A DNA stretch of 20,206 bases, taken from a virus. Each line of letters opens with the position of its first letter. Positions within the stretch are counted from its first letter, which is position 1. The stretch is taken from positions 1 through 20,206 of the IMG/VR virus record IMGVR_UViG_3300047312_000029; one strand, given 5' to 3'. Below the pieces are notes generated by a model, which was not told where the DNA came from, made no database searches, and saw nothing but the letters and a program-made list of their open reading frames with translations. The translations under genes were made by a program, and so were the position numbers. Shown here piece by piece: positions 1 to 20,206 of the stretch.

Positions 1-1931
1 ACATGCCCTTGCTCATTCTTGGCAACGTATTGCCCGGGGACTTCGTGATCGGCCTCGATCTTCAGCGCCTCGGAGCGGATCGCGGGGCCTTGGACAGCGG
101 GACCTTCGGTAGCCCCTACGCGGGCGCCAGCCCTTTCGCTTGGCGTTGCGCCAGGAGTTCCTTGATCTCCGCGCGCGCCAGCTCCCTGATCTCCGCTGCC
201 GACACCGCGTCCGAGTTCCGGCCGCTGAACTCCTTCAGCAGGCGCCGCGCCTGGCGCAGCCTCTGGACCGGGTCGTCCGGGAGCGGTACGAGTGAGGTCA
301 TCGGCGGGCGTTCTAGCCCCTTCGGATGGAGGTGTCGATGGTGCGCGAGGTTCAGCCCCTGGGACCGCTGCTGTTTCACGCGGAACGCCTGCTGGGGGCG
401 TTGGCGGAAGCTCCCCTGTCGGCATGGGACGCCCCGGTGCTTGGGGCTCTGGCGGCGGTGCTGGTGTCGCTCCGGCAGGCTCTCTACCCGGAGACGTTTC
501 CGACGGCCGGAGGACCGCGCTGGGCTCGGCCGTCACTGGCGCAGGTGTCACGGGCGCAGCTTCTCCTGCACCGGCTGGCGGGGCACCTTCGGCGCTGGCT
601 GGACGAGGCTCCGGATGATCCGGCTGCGGCACAGCAGCGCCAGGAACGGCAGTCGCGCTGGGCACTGGCATCGTCTCAGGTCGAGGCGCTGGCGGTGCAG
701 CCGCTTGAGGCGCTTCGATCGGCGGTGCCGCAGTCCCGGGCATAACCCGCTCTTGCGGGAGCGGTGGACGGCCGAACTGGCTCGGCTGCGGGTTGTTGAC
801 GTCCATGCCTTGCGGGGAGCCCGGAAGCGGCAGCCGCTCGGTCAGCGCTCCGGTCGCGGGTATGCCGCCTGTCACGGGTATGCCGCTGGCGCCGGGCGCC
901 TTGATCGCTGCTTCTCGTTCCGCGTCGGCGGATGACTGGAACTCGGGCTTCGGGGCAAAAGGCGCGGGCTCGCGCTTGAGAGCGCCATGCACCCCGGCAA
1001 AGCCAGCGCCGGTGATGGCGTTCTGCGCCGCTTGCTCGACGAACTGGCCCAGCGATGGCTGCTGCTCACCGAGCACCGCGGGGACGCCTGCCTGCGTGGC
1101 CGCGCCGGATACGGTCTGCGCGCCCGCCTGAAAGAGCATTTTGCTGACGATGTTCTTCAGAGGAATGCCGATCCAGGGCGCGGCCTCGAACAGGGGCGCC
1201 GTGGCCGCGACGATCGCGCTGGTGGCTGCGGCGTGCTTCCAGGCGTAAGCGACGGCGTCGTCGTGGCTCAAGCCTTGAGCGCTCGCCTGCAGGAAGGCGG
1301 GCTTCAGATCGTAGGCCAGGGACGTCAAGCCCATGCCACCGGCACCGCCTATGGCGGCACCGATGGGCCCACCCACCGCAAAGCCCGCGCCCGCGCCGCC
1401 TAAGCCCGCCGCCAGCATCGGGCCCGAGCCGCCGACGCCTTGGCCGAGCTGGTGCATAAAGCTCTGCTCGGGCTCCGGCTGCGCGCCTGGATCTGGCGGC
1501 GTAAAGATATTCCCGGTCGCGATGTCCTTGGTCTCTCGAACGCTTCCGGTGAAGCCCGAGCCAATGCCGCTGAAGAAGCCGGTCTCTCGCGCGGGCGCAG
1601 TCTGGTCCTCGCTTGGCGCGGCCGCGGCTTCCGGCGCGGGCGCAGCTGCAGGCGCAGCAACCGGGGCAGCACTCTGGTCTGGCGGGGTCCAGGTCATGGT
1701 GCTGAAATCAGGCGGCGCGGCGGGTGCTGCAGCTGGCGCCGCCGCGACCGGGGCCGCGGGCGGCGTCCAGGTCATTTTACTGAAATCAGGCGGCGCCGCA
1801 GCCGTCGGATCTGGCGCTGGTGTAGCCTGAGCTGGCACGGCTTCCGGGGCTGGCGGCGGCACCGGCGTCGGCGGTGGGGGCGGCGTCCATTTTAACTTGC
1901 TGAAATCGATTGGCGCCAGCGTATCGGGCAT
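1..1931 (-). CDS. Giant internal virion / large polyvalent-type protein, N-terminal 643 residues (runs off left edge)
   Basis: The frame opens at ATG 1931, five bases after the transglycosylase stop, behind a GGGGG/TTGAGG purine stretch, and stays open to base 3. Residues 1-115 are a Pro/Ala-rich linker carrying three copies of a short motif (residues 8-18, 48-58, 74-84; consensus DFS-K-M-T-WTPP). Residues 163-205 are a glycine-rich hydrophobic stretch. Residues about 205-345 are an alpha-helical Ala-rich domain, including GLSHDDAVAYAW, of the kind seen between enzymatic domains of phage large polyvalent proteins. Residues about 345-620 are again Pro/Ala/Gly-rich, then ordinary-looking sequence resumes (EALKIEADHEVPGQYVAK). 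Wobble GC is high in the helical domain and clearly lower in the linkers. By position it corresponds to the T7 gp16 slot, with the transglycosylase encoded separately just upstream. Family assignment is inference from architecture; the C-terminal domains lie outside the window. Two alternative-frame ORFs inside the second linker are discussed under findings. Confidence 0.75.
   Translation of the reverse strand, partial: MPDTLAPIDFSKLKWTPPPPPTPVPPPAPEAVPAQATPAPDPTAAAPPDFSKMTWTPPAAPVAAAPAAAPAAPPDFSTMTWTPPDQSAAPVAAPAAAPAPEAAAAPSEDQTAPARETGFFSGIGSGFTGSVRETKDIATGNIFTPPDPGAQPEPEQSFMHQLGQGVGGSGPMLAAGLGGAGAGFAVGGPIGAAIGGAGGMGLTSLAYDLKPAFLQASAQGLSHDDAVAYAWKHAAATSAIVAATAPLFEAAPWIGIPLKNIVSKMLFQAGAQTVSGAATQAGVPAVLGEQQPSLGQFVEQAAQNAITGAGFAGVHGALKREPAPFAPKPEFQSSADAEREAAIKAPGASGIPVTGGIPATGALTERLPLPGSPQGMDVNNPQPSQFGRPPLPQERVMPGTAAPPIEAPQAAAPPAPRPETMPVPSATAVPGAAVPQPDHPEPRPASAEGAPPAGAGEAAPVTPAPVTAEPSAVLRPSETSPGREPAGATPAPPPEPQAPGRPMPTGELPPTPPAGVPRETAAVPGAEPRAPSTPPSEGARTPADDLTRTAPGRPGPEAAPGAAPAEGVQRPELGRGVGSGDQGAGARGDQGTPGATPSERAGARVGATEGPAVQGPAIRSEALKIEADHEVPGQYVAKNEQGH
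1684..1917 (-). repeat. Three imperfect copies of a DFS-K-M-T-WTPP coding repeat
   Basis: Near-identical DNA blocks lie at about 1684-1718, 1762-1796 and 1882-1917. They encode the same 11-residue motif (P/I-DFS-K/T-M/L-T/K-WTPP) three times in the N-terminal linker of the giant protein. The two inner copies share almost all bases; the copy nearest the start codon has diverged. The Pro/Ala spacers between copies differ in length (29 and 15 residues), so this is a spaced motif and not a simple tandem repeat. Confidence 0.8.
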
Positions 1932-1935
1932 GGCC

Positions 1936-2499
1936 TCAACCCCCGAGCCGCCGGGCCAGCATGAGCTGCGCCCCCGGCATCAGCGGCACGCGCATGGGCG
2001 TGGCGGGCCCAGGCTCAGGAATGGCCTGAGACAAGGCGCCCATGCCAGGCGGGCTCCACGCGCTCTCGCGCATCGCGGCGAAGACGCGCGGATCCACGCC
2101 TGGCGCGGCAGGGGCGGCCGGAGTTGCAGCGGGCGGCTGCGGAATGGAGACCGGCGCGTCTTGGGTCGCTCCCGATAGCGCTGGTCCCGGACCAGTCTGC
2201 TGCCCTTGGTTGCCCGAAAGATACGCCGACAACCTTGGATTGCAGCCGGGACAAGTCCAGTCACCGAGCCCGCGCTTCGAGACGGCTTGGGCGAAGACCT
2301 GGTCCTGGACCTCGGGCGGCGCCGATGCCGCCGTCGGATATTGGCCTGTATCCACGCCGATTTGCGAGGCGTACTGCCGCCAGGTCGGCGTGATGAACTG
2401 ATACGCCCCCGACGCCGAGCTATGCGCATTCTGCGCGCCGTAATCACCGCCGCTCTCGAAGCGCTTGACGACGGCAGCCATGTCGGCGACGGAAGCCAT
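1936..2499 (-). CDS. Lysozyme-like lytic transglycosylase (virion-associated)
   Basis: This 187-residue protein has a lysozyme-like fold in its first ~95 residues. A predicted catalytic Glu sits in KRFESGGDYG (Glu15 from this start), followed by the substrate-groove motif SASGAYQFITPTW and a WTCPGC pair of cysteines before the domain ends near PRLSAYL. The remaining ~90 residues are a Pro/Ala/Gln-rich tail. The known role of such domains in podovirus ejection complexes (T7 gp16 N-terminus) is to cut peptidoglycan so DNA can cross the cell wall. ATG 2499 shares its A with the stop of the 676-residue gene (TGATG). An in-frame GTG directly before it (2502) is an equally possible start giving 188 residues. 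No signal peptide is seen, which fits a particle-carried enzyme better than a secreted endolysin. A lysis endolysin role cannot be fully excluded. Confidence 0.82.
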   Translation of the reverse strand: MASVADMAAVVKRFESGGDYGAQNAHSSASGAYQFITPTWRQYASQIGVDTGQYPTAASAPPEVQDQVFAQAVSKRGLGDWTCPGCNPRLSAYLSGNQGQQTGPGPALSGATQDAPVSIPQPPAATPAAPAAPGVDPRVFAAMRESAWSPPGMGALSQAIPEPGPATPMRVPLMPGAQLMLARRLGG

Positions 2500-4529
2500 C
2501 ACGGCCCCGCGAAGACTTGACCGTTATGAACGACAAACGTGCCGCCCCTCGGGTTCGGTGAAGTGCTGCCTTCGACCGCGCCTGGCGGGGCGGGACCAAG
2601 CGGCGTAGGGGCGCCGAAGCGTGAGCCGCCGGGGCCGCTGTATGAAGACTGCGCTCCCAGCCCGGATGTGATAAGGCCCCCTAGAGTGCCCTCCCCAAAC
2701 GGCGACGGCTGCACCGTCTGCGCTGGCGTTGCCGTCTGCGCTGGCGTTGCCGTCTGCGCTGGCGTCGTCGTTTGCGCTGGCGTCGTCGTTTGCGCTGGCG
2801 TCGTTTGCGATGTCGGCGTGGCGCCGGTCCCGGAAGCGCCGGGCTTGATCAGGCCGATCATCAAATGCTCCTCGGACTTGCCGCCGACCGGCTGGAAAGG
2901 GCTCAGCTTGGGGTTGCCGAACAAAGCGCCCGTGACCTTGGGGCCCCAATTCCCGCGCATCTCGTTGACCTGGTCGACGCTTGGCACCAGGCCCTTGTCC
3001 TGCAACATCTGGACCGCGACCTCGTGCGCCCGTCCTGGATTGTTGCGGTAGGTGAGGCTCTTGGACTGCAACTCCTCGACGAGATCGTCGATCGCCTTCT
3101 GCGCATCCGGCTTGAACGCGATCGGGTTGGTGAGGCCGGTCGGTGCTTTGCCCGGGTCTGGTCTCGGAAAGAGCCGCTGATCGGTGATGTAATCGTTCTG
3201 CTGCTGCTTGTGATAGGCGTCCTGGTCGATCGGCTTCGGCACGGACGCGACGGCGGTATACCGCTCGATCAGATCCTTCCGCCGCGCCTCGTTCGTCTCG
3301 GCGCCGATCGCCGCCTGCATCGCCGCGGTCCATTGTTCCGTCGTCTTGGGCATCTCGATGTAATTCTTGGCTTTGGCCGTGTCGGCATCGGTGTTGATCG
3401 GCACTCCCGGGTTGTTGTAATCCATGTAAGTTGCGCGGGCGCCGCCTTGCGTCTGCTGGATCTGCGCGACGCCCGCATCGTAGGCGCGTGCGCCTTGCGG
3501 CATCGGATCGCCGCGGCGATGGTCGACCAAGGTCCCGTCCGCCAGCACGATCTTGTCGTATGCGTTATCCGCGCTCGCTCGGCTGACATCGAGCGCGCTT
3601 TTCGCTGTCGTGTCGGCGACGGCTTGTCTGCCTGCGACTTCGGTGGTGGCGACGCCTTGCCTGCCCGCGACGTCGATATTGGCGACGGCCTGCGCGCTTT
3701 GGTTGGCGAGCGCCTGGTTATGGGATGAGGCTTCCCCCATGTGGGCTAAATACTCATCCGCCACCGATTGCGGAATACGGCCGGTCGCGACAGCTTGAAG
3801 GATAACCGCTTTGTTCTGCGCATAGATCTGATCGGCAGGGATGTGCGCCGCGATCTGCATCGCCGTCAGCTTCGCCATGTCGAGCCCGAGCGGCGACCGC
3901 GAGCCATCCTGCGCGGCAGGCGGGGCATGGATCGTTCCCGCAGGCGTGTCGCTGCCGCGCGCGTTCACGCTGCCGGGCGCAAGCACACCGCCAAGGGTTC
4001 CTTTCGGATCGGGGACCTGAGTGCCGTTGGAGCCGGTCGGCGGCGTTCCGGCAGGGGGCATGCCCCCTGGTGAGTTATCAACCGTTGTCGCGAGCTTATC
4101 CACCATCTGCGCAGGCGTCGACGTAGGCGGCACCCAATGGCCCGGGACCGTCTGGCCGGTCGGCGCAACTTGGGGCGGCGGGGCTCCCTGGTCCGGCATC
4201 GGCGCTACAGCCGCCGCCAAGCTCGGCGTCGCGGGTGCCGCGGCTGGCGCCGCAGCTGCGGGCGCCCCAGGATCGTTCATAATGTTCATATTGGTGGCCG
4301 CATCATGCCTGTAAGTCGGCGTCTGCTGCGGCCGCCCGTAGACGTCGAGCAACACAGCATGCCCGGCCGCCGATTGATCTTGGGTTTGAGCCGCATCGGT
4401 CAGGTTCTTGCGCGCCTGCGTGCCGTAGTAATACGCCTCGCTTTGCTTGGTCGGGTCCGGAAACGCGCTGAACACCGAGCTAAGCGCCTGGTCCCATTGC
4501 GGGCTGCCGGTGTTGAATTGTGAAGGCAT
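2499..4529 (-). CDS. Large internal virion protein (gp15-position), 676 aa
   Basis: I do not recognise a named family. Residues 1-85 look globular and helical. Residues 86-215 are a Pro/Ala/Gly linker. Residues about 216-330 are helical with a repeated VAGRQ-G/A-VA unit (about 287-306). Residues about 330-560 form a mixed domain rich in charged residues (AYHKQQQNDYITDQRLFPRP). Residues about 575-605 are five TPAQT-type repeats, and the protein ends in a Gly/Ser-rich tail closing with FVVHNGQVFAGP. It sits between the gp14-like proteins and the transglycosylase, which is where T7-type phages keep their long ejection-tube protein, so an ejection role is inferred from position. ATG 4529 follows the upstream stop by 13 bases. 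The leader has only an AGGG about 11 bases before the start, a poor ribosome site, so coupling to the upstream gene is likely. Confidence 0.75.
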   Translation of the reverse strand: MPSQFNTGSPQWDQALSSVFSAFPDPTKQSEAYYYGTQARKNLTDAAQTQDQSAAGHAVLLDVYGRPQQTPTYRHDAATNMNIMNDPGAPAAAAPAAAPATPSLAAAVAPMPDQGAPPPQVAPTGQTVPGHWVPPTSTPAQMVDKLATTVDNSPGGMPPAGTPPTGSNGTQVPDPKGTLGGVLAPGSVNARGSDTPAGTIHAPPAAQDGSRSPLGLDMAKLTAMQIAAHIPADQIYAQNKAVILQAVATGRIPQSVADEYLAHMGEASSHNQALANQSAQAVANIDVAGRQGVATTEVAGRQAVADTTAKSALDVSRASADNAYDKIVLADGTLVDHRRGDPMPQGARAYDAGVAQIQQTQGGARATYMDYNNPGVPINTDADTAKAKNYIEMPKTTEQWTAAMQAAIGAETNEARRKDLIERYTAVASVPKPIDQDAYHKQQQNDYITDQRLFPRPDPGKAPTGLTNPIAFKPDAQKAIDDLVEELQSKSLTYRNNPGRAHEVAVQMLQDKGLVPSVDQVNEMRGNWGPKVTGALFGNPKLSPFQPVGGKSEEHLMIGLIKPGASGTGATPTSQTTPAQTTTPAQTTTPAQTATPAQTATPAQTVQPSPFGEGTLGGLITSGLGAQSSYSGPGGSRFGAPTPLGPAPPGAVEGSTSPNPRGGTFVVHNGQVFAGP
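2716..2805 (-). repeat. Five-copy 18-bp tandem repeat (TPAQTx)
   Basis: Five head-to-tail 18-bp units (plus-strand unit gtctgcgctggcgttgcc with variants) occupy 90 bases and encode a Thr-Pro-Ala-Gln-Thr-Ala/Thr hexapeptide series in the 676-residue internal protein. The first two units are identical; the others differ by one to three bases. The length is a multiple of three, so copy-number changes would keep the frame. Confidence 0.93.
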
Positions 4530-4542
4530 GATGGGAGGAACC

Positions 4543-5601
4543 CTAATATGCGGTTGCAGGGTCGGGCTTCGACGTAAAGAGCGAGCCGAGATTAGTCACG
4601 TTCGGATCGGCGCTGCTGGGGCTGCCGAGATAGCGCGCGCCGCCATACGCGGCGAGCTGACCGATGCCGCCGATGATGCCCGCCTGCGATTTCTGATAGG
4701 CGATATCAGCCTGCGTCTGCGCCAGCTTGTTTTGCGCGATCGTGTTGGCATCGCTCTGCTTCAAGTTCGCAAGATCGGTGGCGTTGCCGTAGCTCAAGCC
4801 CGCGGCATCGAGCGCGCTCTGGCCCTTCGACTGCAGCAAGATGTCCTGCGCATTGCCGGTCCCGGTCGCGGCCTGATAGGCGACTTGGCTCGGCAGCAAT
4901 CGCGTCGCGCTGCCTTGGCGCAGCAAATTTTCGGCCGACTGCGCGGGCATGATCCCGACCCGGTTGGCGGCAATCGCCTGATTGACCGCTTGTCCCGGCT
5001 GCTCGTAGCTTTGCACCGCCGCGATCTTCGAGCCGTAATTGCGGATGTTGGTCGCGGCCTCGGCCATCCGCCGCGTCGTCGCGCCTTGCGCGACCGTGTC
5101 GCTGGAGACAGCGTTGTTACCGCCCGATGGATCCGACGCTTCGGGTCCTTGCGGTGCGCTCGACGAGGTGAGCAACGCCGCGGCTTGCTGCTGCGATCCG
5201 CTCTGCGCATCGGCAAGCTTCTGCTGCGTGGTCGCGTCAAGCAGCTGCTGCGCCTGCGTATCGCCGGTCTGGCGTAGGCTTTCAGCCTGCTGGTTCTCGG
5301 CAGCGAGCGTGTCCTGATAATTCTTGAGCGCGCTCATCTGGCTGGTGCGCATCTGATTGGCGGCAGTCGCGCGCGTGTTGAGCGTTTCTTGCTGCGCCGC
5401 GGTCTGCGCTGAAGTCTGCTGCAGCTGAGCGTTGAGACGCTGGCCGAAAGCCTCATTCTGCGCGTTCTGCGTTGCCAGATTTGACTGGCTAATCGCGTTT
5501 GCGCTCTCCTGCGCGGCTTTCGTCTGCTGCGCCGAGGAATACAGCGTCGTAGCGGCACCGAGCGCCGCAGCTCCAATCGAGACTGAGATAGCGTCACACA
5601 C
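4543..5601 (-). CDS. Gln/Ala-rich internal virion protein B (gp14-like), 352 aa
   Basis: A longer open frame reaches 5712, but its first 37 residues are an Arg-rich shadow of the previous gene. The better start is GTG 5601, eight bases after a GAGGT ribosome site and just past the previous stop. It gives an N-terminus MCDAISVSIGAAALGAATTL, typical of gp14-like ejection proteins, which often begin MCD/MC followed by a hydrophobic Ala/Gly segment. Residues about 6-20 form that hydrophobic segment. Residues about 21-110 are Gln/Ala/Asn-rich and predicted helical or coiled-coil, residues about 110-150 contain a loop with SAPQGPEASDPSGG, and the C-terminal half is again helical (AQNKLAQTQADIAYQKSQAG), followed by IIGGIGQLAAYGGARYLG. 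The inferred role is a channel component of the DNA-ejection apparatus inside the capsid. It resembles its upstream neighbour in composition and may be a diverged paralogue. Confidence 0.72.
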   Translation of the reverse strand: MCDAISVSIGAAALGAATTLYSSAQQTKAAQESANAISQSNLATQNAQNEAFGQRLNAQLQQTSAQTAAQQETLNTRATAANQMRTSQMSALKNYQDTLAAENQQAESLRQTGDTQAQQLLDATTQQKLADAQSGSQQQAAALLTSSSAPQGPEASDPSGGNNAVSSDTVAQGATTRRMAEAATNIRNYGSKIAAVQSYEQPGQAVNQAIAANRVGIMPAQSAENLLRQGSATRLLPSQVAYQAATGTGNAQDILLQSKGQSALDAAGLSYGNATDLANLKQSDANTIAQNKLAQTQADIAYQKSQAGIIGGIGQLAAYGGARYLGSPSSADPNVTNLGSLFTSKPDPATAY

Positions 5602-5611
5602 GGGCTTTACC

Positions 5612-6565
5612 TCACTTCTTGGTGCTGCCTGCGCTGGGGTCGCCCGCCGACGGGCTGCCCGCCCGGCCGAGCGCGGCTTGCTGCGCGATCCCGCCCGCGT
5701 TGAGCCCGCCATAAAGGCTGCTGCCGGTGTTGATCAGCCCCGCGAAGATATCGCCGATCGAGTTGACTTGCGGCACGCCTTGCAGGCTGGACACGGTATC
5801 GCCCGCCGTGCTGGTCAAGCCGGTGATCGCCGAGCGCTGCGTCTGCAGCGCGTTGTTCACGTCTTGGATGTTCGAGCCTGCGATTGGCGAGCCGATGCTC
5901 TCGGAACTCTGCACCTGGCCGAGCAGATTTTGCTTGGTTTGCGCGACGTTGGACTGCAGCTGGTTGGCGGCCTGCTGCGCCGCAGCGGTCTGCTCGGCGG
6001 TGGCGCGGCCGGAGGTCTCCTGCAGCAGCCCGGCCTGATTGATCCCGGCCTGGCTCGATGAGATGCCTTGCCGCGCCAAGCCGAAAGCCAGCGCCTTTTG
6101 CGCGATCTGCTTTTGATAATCGATCTGGTCCTGCGCCTTCGACATATAGTCGTTGGCGTATTTTTGGAAGTAATCCGGGCTGAACGATGCGAAAGCATCG
6201 TTGACCTTTTGCGTGCCCTCGCCGAGCAGCTGCGAGCGGCCGGTATCGTAAGCCGTCTGCCGCTCAGCCTGGTCCTGCACCTGCTTCTGCTGCTGCGCGT
6301 ATTGGTCCTGCTGCGCCTGGAATTGCTGCACATTGAGCGCGTTCTGCTGATCGGCGATCTCCCTCTGCGCCGCGATCTGCTTGTCGCTGAGATCCGCCGC
6401 CGCCATCTGCTGATACTGCGGCACCGTAATCGCGCCCCGGAGCGCATACTCGTCGGGAACGCCATCTTGGACGCTTCTCGTTCCCCGGTTTCCCTGCGCG
6501 TCGATATAAGGCGCATCGTGTGTCGTGGGAGCGCTGCTACCCCCGCCGCCGCCGCCCATGCACAT
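5612..6565 (-). CDS. Gln/Ala-rich internal virion protein A (gp14-like), 317 aa
   Basis: The N-terminus MCMGGGGGGSSAP followed by a short Asp/Tyr stretch is a hallmark seen in gp14-like podovirus internal proteins. Residues about 55-110 are an extremely Gln-rich helix (QQFQAQQDQYAQQQKQ) that should form a coiled coil. Residues about 110-235 remain helical, including QKALAFGLARQGISSSQAGI, and the C-terminus is Gly/Ala/Ser-rich ending in Lys-Lys. ATG 6565 lies one base after the GNAT gene's stop (TGAGATG), with TAGGAG nine bases before it; the in-frame ATG at 6559 is the alternative. It precedes a second protein of the same style, so the phage appears to carry two consecutive gp14-like genes. 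Function is inferred from composition, the MC start and location in the ejection module. Confidence 0.72.
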   Translation of the reverse strand: MCMGGGGGGSSAPTTHDAPYIDAQGNRGTRSVQDGVPDEYALRGAITVPQYQQMAAADLSDKQIAAQREIADQQNALNVQQFQAQQDQYAQQQKQVQDQAERQTAYDTGRSQLLGEGTQKVNDAFASFSPDYFQKYANDYMSKAQDQIDYQKQIAQKALAFGLARQGISSSQAGINQAGLLQETSGRATAEQTAAAQQAANQLQSNVAQTKQNLLGQVQSSESIGSPIAGSNIQDVNNALQTQRSAITGLTSTAGDTVSSLQGVPQVNSIGDIFAGLINTGSSLYGGLNAGGIAQQAALGRAGSPSAGDPSAGSTKK

Positions 6566-6566
6566 C

Positions 6567-7115
6567 TCATTGCACTCCTATGCTTGCCGTGAAGCCACGG
6601 CGCGGCTTCAAGTGCCGTGTCACGCGGGAAGCGCGATGGTCCCGGGTCAGGTCCCAGGCGTACAAAAGAAAGTCTTCGCGCTGTCGGCCATAGCCTTTCA
6701 GCACGCTCTCGATCTCGCCGCCCAGCATCTCGATCCAGCGACGGCTGTCGGTGTTCGCGGCCAGGACATAGGCTTCGCCGCGGTGATAGTTCGCATTCTT
6801 CAGGACCGGGATCACGAAATCCAAGGACCAGCGCGTCATCGAGCGGATCACGCCACGCCACTTCGCCGTGCCGAACGCGCCCGCGACCACGACGCCGGGA
6901 CGTATCGGGACCACACCGTTGATCGCGACAGGCTCGTCATCGAGCGTCCAGATCCGCCACAGCTCGCCAGCGACAGGGAGAAGACTATCGAGGAACGTGT
7001 CTTCGTTATCGTCCCAGCGCAGGGCGAAGATCTCGGCGCGATCGCGCGGGCGCAAGTTGCGCACGATATAAGCAAGCGCCGGCCTCGTGACATGATGCGA
7101 CGCGACGATGCTCAC
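6567..7115 (-). CDS. GNAT-fold protein of the T7 gp13 / DUF2833 type
   Basis: The 182-residue product has the layout of a GNAT acyltransferase-like fold. An N-terminal part (RNLRPRDRAEIFALRW) is followed by beta strands (LWRIWTLDDEPVAINGVVPI) and an aromatic/GTAKW segment. The C-terminal half, HRGEAYVLAANTDSRRWIEM then LGGEIESVLKGYGR, matches the usual end of GNAT domains, where a side-by-side residue exchange with a loop closes the sheet. Phage relatives (T7 gp13 / DUF2833 proteins) occur next to internal virion genes, as here. I do not see a clear acetyl-CoA pyrophosphate-binding Q/R-x-x-G-x-G/A loop, so catalysis is doubtful. Translation starts at GTG 7115, overlapping the nozzle gene stop by four bases (GTGA); no in-frame ATG is close. 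A ribosomal-type acetyltransferase is the alternative reading. Confidence 0.7.
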   Translation of the reverse strand: MSIVASHHVTRPALAYIVRNLRPRDRAEIFALRWDDNEDTFLDSLLPVAGELWRIWTLDDEPVAINGVVPIRPGVVVAGAFGTAKWRGVIRSMTRWSLDFVIPVLKNANYHRGEAYVLAANTDSRRWIEMLGGEIESVLKGYGRQREDFLLYAWDLTRDHRASRVTRHLKPRRGFTASIGVQ

Positions 7116-8536
7116 TTGGTCACGCCCTCTTGCAGGTTGAAATGCAGCGCCGCCATGATCGCCTCACCCGGGGCCTCGTGCTCCATGTGGACGCCGATAT
7201 GCGTGCCGTAGCCCGCGAACGGGATGCTCTGCAGCCCATAGGTGTTGTCCTGGATCGTGGCGCAGAGCTCGAACAGATCGGTGCGGTTCGGCAGCATGCC
7301 GATGCTGACGGACCATTGGCCTTGGCACATCACGTCGACGCTCTTGATGCGCTTCCACTCGGTCGGACTGTCGGCCGACATATGCGGCGTGCGGACCGTG
7401 ATCTTGCAGCTGTCGAACTCCGTGCGCGTTGCGCCGCCATAAAGATAGATGTTGCCCGCGTTGTCGTCGCAAAAGACCATGTTGCCGATCAGGGCAAAGG
7501 TGCGCACGTTGAAGCCGGGGCTAAGGGTGGACCACGCCGTGATATGTCCCGCGGGAAAATACGACAGCACATAAATCGTCGGACCCAGCGCCAGCCAGTA
7601 GCGCCCTTGGATCGGCTGCACCGTCGCCACCGCATGCGGCACGGCGGCCGCGTTGGACCGGATCCACGGGATCAGCGCCAGATCGATCGGCGAGCCGACA
7701 TCGTTGACCGAAGCCGCCAGATTGATGACATTCGACTTGAGCGAGCGAACGCCGCTGTCGGAGAGGAACAAGATATCGCCGGTGCCGAACTGCAGCACCG
7801 ATTGCGGCGCGATCACGCCGATGCGCAGCAGCTGCCCCAGCGTGTCTTTGGTCGGGTCGGGATCGAGCGCCCAGATCTGCGTCTGCAGCTGCGACATCAC
7901 CGCCATGTTGGAATAGTAGACTTCCATCGATATCAGCGGCTCGCCGAGCGGATCGTTGAGCGCCGTGTTGATGAAGCCCGCGCCGGGCTCGTCGGTCGAG
8001 TTCGGATCGTTTTGCGCCGGGTTGTTGACGCCGCTGAAGCGAAGATATTTGCCGTCGAGGCGATACATCTTCGACTTCCAGGTCCGCGCGTAGGTGCCGT
8101 GCGAATAGCTGCTGTCGACTTCCAGCACCATCGCGCCGTTATACCAGCAGTAGGTGACGCCGGTGCCGAGATCCTGGAAGCAAACGAAGAACAGCTCGTC
8201 GTAAGGCTCGACATCGAGAATGTCGTAAGGGCCGGTTCCCGCAAAGACGATGTTATGCGCGACGATCGGCACGGGGCACGCCCCTTGCGGGATCACAGCG
8301 CCGCCGGTGTTGACGCCGAAAGCATGCAGCGTATCGCGATGACCGAGCAAATAGAGATAGACCGGCGGCATCGTCGTCATCGGGACGAAGGCGTAGCGCT
8401 TCTCGATCTCGCCGCCCTGATTGAGAACGGCATTCTCCAAGATGCGCAGCGAGCCGCCCGGCGCGGTCAGCGGTGTCTTGCGGACATCGAAGCCTTCCTT
8501 GAAATCGGTGACACTGAAGACCCGCTGGTCCGGCAT
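7112..8536 (-). CDS. Tail nozzle / stabilisation-type protein (beta-propeller), 474 aa
   Basis: The sequence is beta-rich with regularly spaced aromatic and Gly/Asp turns (YWLALGPTIYVLSYF, MVFCDDNAGNIYLYGGATR), as in the propeller-like nozzle proteins that close the short tail of podoviruses. The opening FSVTDFKEGFDVRKTPLTAP with GGSLRILENAVLNQGGEIEK is characteristic: these proteins begin by describing a reference frame of values 'with a baseline' and contain a conserved N-rich GG-x-x-x-KR element. ATG 8536 shares its A with the adaptor stop (TGATG). Directly following the adaptor gene is the usual order for tail tube/nozzle genes. The role inferred is the distal part of the tail tube holding DNA in the virion until adsorption. 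The family call rests on pattern and gene order, not on catalytic motifs. Confidence 0.75.
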   Translation of the reverse strand: MPDQRVFSVTDFKEGFDVRKTPLTAPGGSLRILENAVLNQGGEIEKRYAFVPMTTMPPVYLYLLGHRDTLHAFGVNTGGAVIPQGACPVPIVAHNIVFAGTGPYDILDVEPYDELFFVCFQDLGTGVTYCWYNGAMVLEVDSSYSHGTYARTWKSKMYRLDGKYLRFSGVNNPAQNDPNSTDEPGAGFINTALNDPLGEPLISMEVYYSNMAVMSQLQTQIWALDPDPTKDTLGQLLRIGVIAPQSVLQFGTGDILFLSDSGVRSLKSNVINLAASVNDVGSPIDLALIPWIRSNAAAVPHAVATVQPIQGRYWLALGPTIYVLSYFPAGHITAWSTLSPGFNVRTFALIGNMVFCDDNAGNIYLYGGATRTEFDSCKITVRTPHMSADSPTEWKRIKSVDVMCQGQWSVSIGMLPNRTDLFELCATIQDNTYGLQSIPFAGYGTHIGVHMEHEAPGEAIMAALHFNLQEGVTK

Positions 8537-19757: not shown

Positions 19758-20206
19758 TCAGTAGTTATAATGCTCGATGACGAGCACCGAGCCGCTGCCG
19801 CCGTTGCCGCCCGCGAAGCCGTTGGTGCCTGCCGCGCCGCCCGCGCCGAGAGCGCCCACGGCATAAGGATAGGTTGCTGCAGGGTTGCCGATGATCTTGC
19901 GGCCATAGCTGCCAGCCGCGCCGCCGCCGCCCGTAAACACGGTGCCGGGCGCTGCCGTAGTCGCGCCGCCACCCGCGCCGCCGCTGCCGCTGCCGGTGGT
20001 CGCCAAGTTGCCGAACGATCCGACCACGGCCATACCCGCGCCACCATAAAAAGAGCTTCCGCCGTCGCCGCCTTTGACCTGTCCCGCGCTCTGCGAGATG
20101 TTGGAAGCAGGATAGCCACCGCTGCCCGCGTTGACGAAAAAATCAACCCCGGTGGTAGCGGTCGCGGGGGCGCCCCGGCCCCAGCCGCCCCCCCCCCCCC
20201 CCCCCC
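19758..20206 (-). CDS. Glycine-rich fibre/tail protein, C-terminal 148 residues (runs off right edge)
   Basis: The frame is open from the right edge to the TGA at 19758-19760. It is Gly-rich with interspersed aromatic and polar loops (GVDFFVNAGSGGYPASNISQ, then GGAGMAVVGSFGN, GGGGAAGSYGRKIIG), closing with GGNGGSGSVLVIEHYNY. Such polyglycine-rich C-termini with a final Tyr-rich strand are typical of phage fibre or adhesin tips. An internal ATG at 20033 is not the true start, because the same composition continues upstream to the edge. The first residues come from a run of 19 C (poly-Gly), so the extreme end may be inaccurate. Confidence 0.75.
   Translation of the reverse strand, partial: GGGGGGGWGRGAPATATTGVDFFVNAGSGGYPASNISQSAGQVKGGDGGSSFYGGAGMAVVGSFGNLATTGSGSGGAGGGATTAAPGTVFTGGGGAAGSYGRKIIGNPAATYPYAVGALGAGGAAGTNGFAGGNGGSGSVLVIEHYNY
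20188..20206. repeat. Homopolymer run of 19 C at the right edge
   Basis: The last 19 bases are all C (G on the coding strand), longer than any other homopolymer in the window. It continues the poly-Gly reading frame, but it also has the form of a sequencing or assembly artefact at a contig end. Confidence 0.95.

Follow-up and report, generated by a model that had tools for sequence, protein, structure and literature searches.

What is encoded by the gene that runs off the left edge of this viral contig, next to a separate gene for a wall hydrolase? The stretch analysed, here called the window, is the entire 20,206-base IMG/VR record, so its left edge is the end of the contig, and the open frame at 3..1931 on the minus strand continues for 643 codons without a stop, its 3' end being cut by that edge. 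In 2000 mononucleotide shuffles of the same letters no equally long open frame arose, the longest reaching 522. The frame is also encoded on independent contigs, and the gene is complete on two near-identical ones, L003, where it has 2,312 codons, and L004. Amino acid identity to the window is 92% for L003 (over 634 aligned codons) and 82% for L004, with dN/dS (NG86) of ~0.36 and ~0.51 respectively and with substitutions favouring the third codon position. The first-pass annotation had the gene open for at least 643 residues, which is borne out both by the frame itself and by the intact gene of L003, and an early stop beyond the left edge is excluded in the relatives, the stop of L003 lying far past it. 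From these relatives the complete protein is put at about 2,312 residues, of which the window would hold the first 643.

It is considered likely that the frame is the beginning of a ~2,310-residue internal virion (ejection) protein of a podovirus-type phage, a functional counterpart of T7 gp16 and epsilon15 gp17, in which short repeats would serve as docking tags ahead of a peptidase and an ejection module. The giant protein begins with repeats set on a Pro/Ala linker, continues with a helical segment rich in Gly and Ala and then another linker with a coiled-coil-like stretch, and ends with a predicted zincin-like metallopeptidase, an LPD1 domain and an ~870-residue all-helical ejection module. 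The last three lie outside the window and are ascribed to its protein by way of the relatives that are 82-92% identical over the shared part. Within the L003 protein (P0001) residues 1-160 are 50% Pro, Ala and Gly, residues 161-345 are Gly/Ala-rich and residues 346-643 are again 55% Pro, Ala and Gly, and in all 2,312 residues not one stretch of 19 residues has a mean hydropathy above 1.5. The composition of linkers, Gly-rich and Ala-rich segments described earlier is therefore real, but the Gly-rich part, which had been called hydrophobic, is only mildly so when judged by the hydropathy of the L003 protein. In the window the Gly-rich then Ala-rich helical segment (residues ~160-340) is at 912..1454 and the Pro/Ala/Gly linker that follows it (residues ~341-643, by composition) at 3..911, both on the minus strand. 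The Gly/Ala segment, delimited by composition and profile matches, is kept in the close clade (15 sequences, including one partial), with the profile rebuilt from N-terminal halves only after a first iterated profile had drifted to a C-terminal segment. Its Ala-rich helical domain matches no Pfam family, and it is possible that the segment is membrane-active.

For the part of the gene beyond the edge, enzyme domains had been suggested, with ADP-ribosyltransferase, protease, methyltransferase and polymerase named as candidates. A protease is predicted there, as a zincin with the pattern HExxHxxD, and the other three are absent from the complete relatives (Pfam and PHROGs, with 21 relatives covered by Pfam). 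The motif HEWIHARD starts at residue 1089 of the L003 protein, and H1089, E1090, H1093, D1096, Y1211, E1217, R1221 and E1224 are invariant in 62 of 62 relatives, which were gathered with a search pattern that selected for NSF[GA]HEW but left H1093, D1096 and the later Glu residues free. An Asp three residues after HExxH characterises the phage-type zincin of polyvalent proteins (Iyer et al. 2017, PMC5512222), and the giant protein has the full set of features of LPP zincins, namely HExxH, the Asp three residues downstream and a downstream Glu (E1217/E1224). Both invariant Glu residues sit within LPD1 (PF18796), which occupies residues 1208-1282 of the L003 protein (28 bits against a Pfam cut-off of 27) and was found by Pfam in all 21 diverse relatives, so the third metal ligand probably comes from LPD1. 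The peptidase region has a confident predicted fold (pLDDT 91), and the zinc peptidases MATCAP (E 0.045) and BACCAC_01431 (E 0.16) are among its top matches in the PDB, all of them weak; fold searches of the PDB with the peptidase and the C-terminal module gave no significant match, and PDB sequence searches with profiles of the two regions gave nothing meaningful. The giant protein is thus predicted to contain a zincin-like metallopeptidase of the phage polyvalent type, the sole enzyme found in the window lineage. A DdrB-type ParB domain is added in 8 of the 21 diverse relatives (Pfam) and occurs in many distant ones, and is absent from the window clade and from the protein of Microcystis phage Mae-Yong1326-1. 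The match of the N-terminal part to phrog_2206 (vRNAP) is weak (E 0.015). With LPD1 above the Pfam cut-off and a predicted zincin past the left edge, the proposal of the first-pass annotation that this is a large polyvalent protein appears largely right.

The last ~870 residues of the giant protein are predicted to be nearly all helical (pLDDT 87) and, judged by profile comparison, are homologous to the internal virion protein family of epsilon15 gp17 and VP2. Aligned with 10 internal virion proteins of epsilon15 gp17, VP2 and Pelagiphage type, the module gives an hhalign probability of 98.3% (E 1.4e-14) over 568 columns, and residues 1680-1999 of the L003 protein match the virion structural families phrog_6958 and phrog_684 in PHROGs, the latter being the VP2 family (E 1.8e-7). 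Foldseek against BFVD finds VP2 (6e-9), 'internal protein D' of Bordetella phage BB8 (2.6e-8), the core protein of RSB3 (5e-7) and JG068 (1.3e-5). There is also a weak hhalign alignment with residues 835-1159 of T7 gp16 (62.6%, E 7e-5), which is only suggestive of kinship with gp16 itself. It is known that gp16-C is found in the host cytoplasm and binds DNA (PMC8954989), which is the basis for the role proposed below for the module. The members of the epsilon15 gp17/VP2 family (phrog_684) that were examined are ~780-1,000 residues long and lack an HExxH peptidase ahead of the module, whereas in the giant protein ~1,300 extra residues precede it.

The neighbouring genes, all on the minus strand, are those of an ejection cassette in which the giant gene is the last and largest. 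A tail protein in the nozzle/DNA-stabilisation position (7112-8536) follows an SU10-type adaptor (PF24175, 8536-9288), and then come a homologue of T7 gp13 (6567..7115; internal virion protein, phrog_308), two small proteins in the gp14 position (5612..6565, starting MCMGGGGGG, and 4543..5601, starting MCDAISV) and a Pro-rich protein of 676 residues in the gp15 position (2499..4529). The roles of the gp14- and gp15-position proteins rest on position, because no sequence similarity to T7 gp14 or gp15 is detectable and they cannot be called homologues of these. Within the gp15-position gene an 18-base tandem repeat is found at 2715-2819 (5-6 copies of TPAQTx units), which has more copies in L004 and L007. 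The order from gp13 homologue through two small proteins, gp15-position protein and hydrolase to giant gene is that of T7 genes 13-14-15-16 and also that of Mae-Yong1326-1. The phage is not strictly a relative of T7, since it combines a gp13 homologue with an adaptor of SU10 type and an ejection module of epsilon15 type.

Between the gp15-position gene and the giant gene lies an Rpf-like transglycosylase (PF06737, 29.5 bits against a cut-off of 27, E 1.2e-6) at 1936..2502 on the minus strand, which starts with GTG at 2502 or ATG at 2500. It is read in another frame than the giant gene, whose ATG at 1931 comes after a gap of 4 bases, and has a dN/dS of ~0.08 against L004. PF06737 homologues occupy the same slot in relatives of the window clade, whilst the slot carries an M15 peptidase in L012, an SLT-type enzyme in L024 and an endolysin-type enzyme in L026. 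Unrelated wall hydrolases likewise fill it across L012, L015, L017, L024 and L026. No wall hydrolase was detected by Pfam within the giant chain of any of 21 complete relatives. A fused transglycosylase is suggested by the annotation of the only named phage with a match, Mae-Yong1326-1, whose ORF38 is named 'peptidoglycan transglycosylase'; there is no such Pfam domain in that protein or in the 21 relatives. The contrast with T7 gp16, in which transglycosylase and ejection protein are one chain, was correctly noted before, but wall hydrolases had already been reported to move from one ejection protein to another (PMC8954989), and the split is common in the family. It is apparent that the split is one part of a mosaic in which the hydrolase is frequently a separate, replaceable gene.

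The linker-rich N-terminus of the giant protein carries three copies of DFSKxxWTPP in its first ~85 residues, all read directly from the minus strand: DFSKLKWTPP at residues 9-18 (1878..1907), DFSKMTWTPP at residues 49-58 (1758..1787) and DFSTMTWTPP at residues 75-84 (1680..1709). Most relatives have 2-4 copies of a ~10-residue motif of their own, near-identical within a protein and unlike between phages. The N-termini of L004 and L007 have VPLxDANGYAILK three times, those of L008 and L010 have LGFTVDxYQPL three times, those of L012, L015 and L017 have LPVLDLDP three times, those of L016 and L073 have LPMATILPDD three times, and LPQxYSTPEE is found in L009, L011 and L013. Several relatives have FDDLIP or NPFADL two to three times, and Mae-Yong1326-1 has DPWAVV twice. 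In 37 of 64 proteins the repeats score higher than the 99% level obtained by shuffling the N-termini, with the statistics for the window motif computed on its L006 homologue. Two distant giant proteins are built in a similar manner, a 3,207-residue frame of Pseudomonas sp. A-1 (L092) that starts with the short repeats GLFDDMEP and GLFDDLEAP and a 3,161-residue frame of P. sagittaria (L093) that starts with SDIDSFL twice, and in both the preceding gene has a helical-looking tail. Given these two, the repeat design may be wider than the present giant-protein family.

A possible partner of the repeats is the C-terminal tail of the gp15-position protein, which in the window reads EGSTSPNPRGGTFVVHNGQVFAGP (2502..2573, minus strand) and is proposed as the repeat receptor from the covariation described here. 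Three types of tail are found, named by eye from their residues alone: a beta-like type (with VVRGGxVYP, FHNGQW or NGQW), a helical type (AIAAGKDPRAVAARLQEMGIDPGGL, pattern RLxxMGIDPxGL) and a UBA-like type (LGYNKNQAQAIAEFIK, pattern LGYsxdqA). Across 47 loci the similarity of the motifs correlates with the similarity of the last 40 residues of the gp15-position protein when similarity of the giant protein's core is controlled for (partial Mantel r 0.33, p 0.0003), the motif units of five loci having been set by hand before this version; with automatic motif choice r is 0.27 (p 0.0002). The gp15-position protein was picked by eye at loci where a further gene lies in between, the loci that gave rise to the docking idea also served to test it, and the partial Mantel test can be anti-conservative on related sequences. 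Among the control segments there is no covariation with the N-terminus of the gp15-position protein (-0.03), the giant protein after the peptidase (-0.03), the next upstream protein (0.04) or the C-terminus of the latter (0.008), and weak correlation with the middle of the gp15-position protein (0.07, p 0.036) and the C-terminus of the giant protein (0.115, p 0.005). The closest comparison is a minimal pair, in which the window and L006 share motif and tail and L007 has both replaced, with a core 93% identical to L003 and L006. A class rule that pairs FDDL motifs with helical tails gave 13/0/0/44, with patterns chosen after looking. Applied frozen to fresh loci, it found two concordant positives, which are close relatives of earlier ones, as well as L184, where the tail pattern gave a false positive, and it missed by its letter L123 and L092, which are of the same type by eye. 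The class rule is exploratory, and it is the similarity test that carries the docking claim.

These observations lead us to propose that the repeats are docking tags that would couple the giant protein to the gp15-position protein. In T7 a 'molecular tape' formed by residues 157-228 of gp16, which follow the transglycosylase domain, binds the C-terminal region of gp15 (PMC8954989), and as the transglycosylase is here a separate gene, the giant protein starts at the matching place. A bolder form of the idea, which may prove wrong about as readily as right, perhaps a little more so, is that a widespread and almost uncultured group of podoviruses uses a private docking code, in which 2-4 N-terminal peptides of ~10 residues would bind a C-terminal mini-domain of the gp15-position protein, the three tail types having matching peptide classes (e.g. 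F/L-D-D-L with the helical tail), so that each phage would load or assemble only its own ejection complex.

Two other readings of this part of the locus have to be weighed. The repeats might instead be capsid-loading signals that bind scaffold, portal or capsid, with the covariation produced by a shared recombination hot spot around the hydrolase gene, and it is true that tail and repeats lie within ~1 kb of each other and flank a swappable gene, where one recombination could exchange both. Yet the hydrolase between the two changed ends of the minimal pair is 96% identical, so both ends changed without it; the correlation also persists without the window clade (0.44), without the FDDL class (0.22) and when the next upstream protein is controlled for, and distant phages share motif and tail type, as in the fresh locus L168 and Mae-Yong1326-1, which both have DPWAVV together with the tail NGQ.WTL.NGVPT.V. 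This makes loading signals an unlikely explanation. It might also be thought that transglycosylase and giant gene are a single gp16-like chain broken by a frameshift artefact, as their frames are one base apart and only 4 bases separate stop from start, but the same split, with a start codon close behind the stop, is seen on independent contigs (L003, L004, L011, L013 and others), and the unrelated hydrolases in the slot of other relatives, as well as the 21 giant proteins that have none detectable by Pfam, render an artefact extremely improbable.

If the giant protein is an ejection protein, the steps of its use might be as follows. Its repeated N-terminal peptides would dock on the tail of the gp15-position protein and keep it in the ejection assembly, several copies giving avidity; at infection the separate upstream transglycosylase would cut the wall, the ejection module would pass through a channel of gp14/gp15 type and aid DNA translocation, and either before or after ejection the peptidase would trim the giant chain or a protein of the host. 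The peptidase may also be a maturation enzyme only, cutting the giant protein inside the head and having no role after ejection. P1 DdrB has a C-terminal zincin and is processed before packaging, head cleavage having been proposed as its maturation (PMC5512222), and a peptidase placed after the variable N-terminal half and ahead of the ejection module is plausibly sited for self-cleavage. Against this, the virion RNA polymerase of N4 shares the layout and yet is packaged without processing (PMC5512222), and a pure maturation role is regarded as somewhat doubtful. The protein as a whole could also be an injected effector of host takeover, a classical polyvalent protein whose peptidase acts on host cytoplasmic proteins and whose C-terminal part is only a delivery tag. 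LPD1, the HExxHxxD peptidase of phage type and the DdrB-ParB of relatives would fit such a role, which Iyer et al. 2017 (PMC5512222) proposed for proteins of this kind. However, a structural ejection module makes up the largest of the conserved parts, and the window lineage lost or never had ParB and has no second enzyme that could be found, so that a pure effector role would leave most of the protein unexplained, and the effector reading is held to be improbable. An ejection protein with docking repeats and a peptidase is preferred here.

The separate pieces of this protein are of known kinds, and it is in their combination that it differs from the systems described. It resembles T7 gp16 in being encoded by the last and largest gene of a cassette with a gp13 homologue, and suggestively in the weak alignment noted above, but has peptidase and LPD1 in place of a transglycosylase in the chain, together with N-terminal repeats. 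The virion RNA polymerases of N4 and DEV are giant ejection proteins in the gp16 position that are laid out in the same way, an N-terminal region being followed by a payload, an HExxH domain and a large domain of helices at the C-terminal end (PMC12633501); the giant protein differs in lacking an RNA polymerase domain (no Pfam polymerase match), and no homology between its peptidase and C-terminal regions and N4 vRNAP is detectable (hhalign <1%). Its LPD1 and its zincin, in which HExxH is followed three residues later by Asp, are shared with P1 DdrB and the phage polyvalent proteins, as is the DdrB-type ParB that a large subset of its relatives has; the giant protein differs in being fused to an ejection module and, in the window lineage, in having no ParB. 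Among 50,697 phage records the only significant match is ORF38 of Mae-Yong1326-1 (UUJ74515.1), 32% identical over residues 946-2185 and in the same gene order, which has a second HExxH motif (HELGH) upstream. This gene, at L005:8410-15735, encodes two HExxH motifs and LPD1. A flexible tail of ~340 nm was reported in the Mae-Yong1326-1 paper, yet the structural genes of this phage are of podovirus type.

An arrangement with the modules in separate genes is seen in Acinetobacter phage MD-2021a, where an 842-residue member of the epsilon15 family comes after a GNAT gene, small genes, a ~680-residue protein and a 963-residue protein with SLT and DdrB-ParB domains, the SLT domain of which is weak and below the Pfam cut-off. 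In these Acinetobacter phages ParB and hydrolase thus share the gene before the ejection protein, whereas many members of the present family have ParB in one chain with peptidase and ejection module, the hydrolase being separate. In MD-2021a, at L120:968-3859 and L119:3238-6099, the SLT-like and DdrB-ParB protein is directly upstream of the epsilon15-type ejection protein, which is an unfused module order.

For the joined chain and its docking code no description was found in the literature searched, an absence that is not in itself proof of novelty. Should the reading preferred here hold, a single chain would unite polyvalent proteins, with their peptidase, LPD1 and ParB, and the ejection proteins of podoviruses, which would tie two literatures together, and the earlier suggestion of enzyme domains delivered with the DNA would gain a concrete vehicle. 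The covariation of repeat and tail offers a directly testable rule for mutual recognition of ejection proteins, of which little is understood beyond T7-like and N4-like phages. The same rule could explain how payloads as unlike as ParB, peptidase and hydrolase can pass from phage to phage and still enter the virion.

Some relatives are found on bacterial contigs labelled Devosia, Siculibacillus, Sphingopyxis and Novosphingobium, which point to alphaproteobacterial hosts for part of the group. At the other end of the window, a very Gly-rich open frame at 19758-20204 on the minus strand, fibre- or adhesin-like in appearance, is cut by the right contig end.
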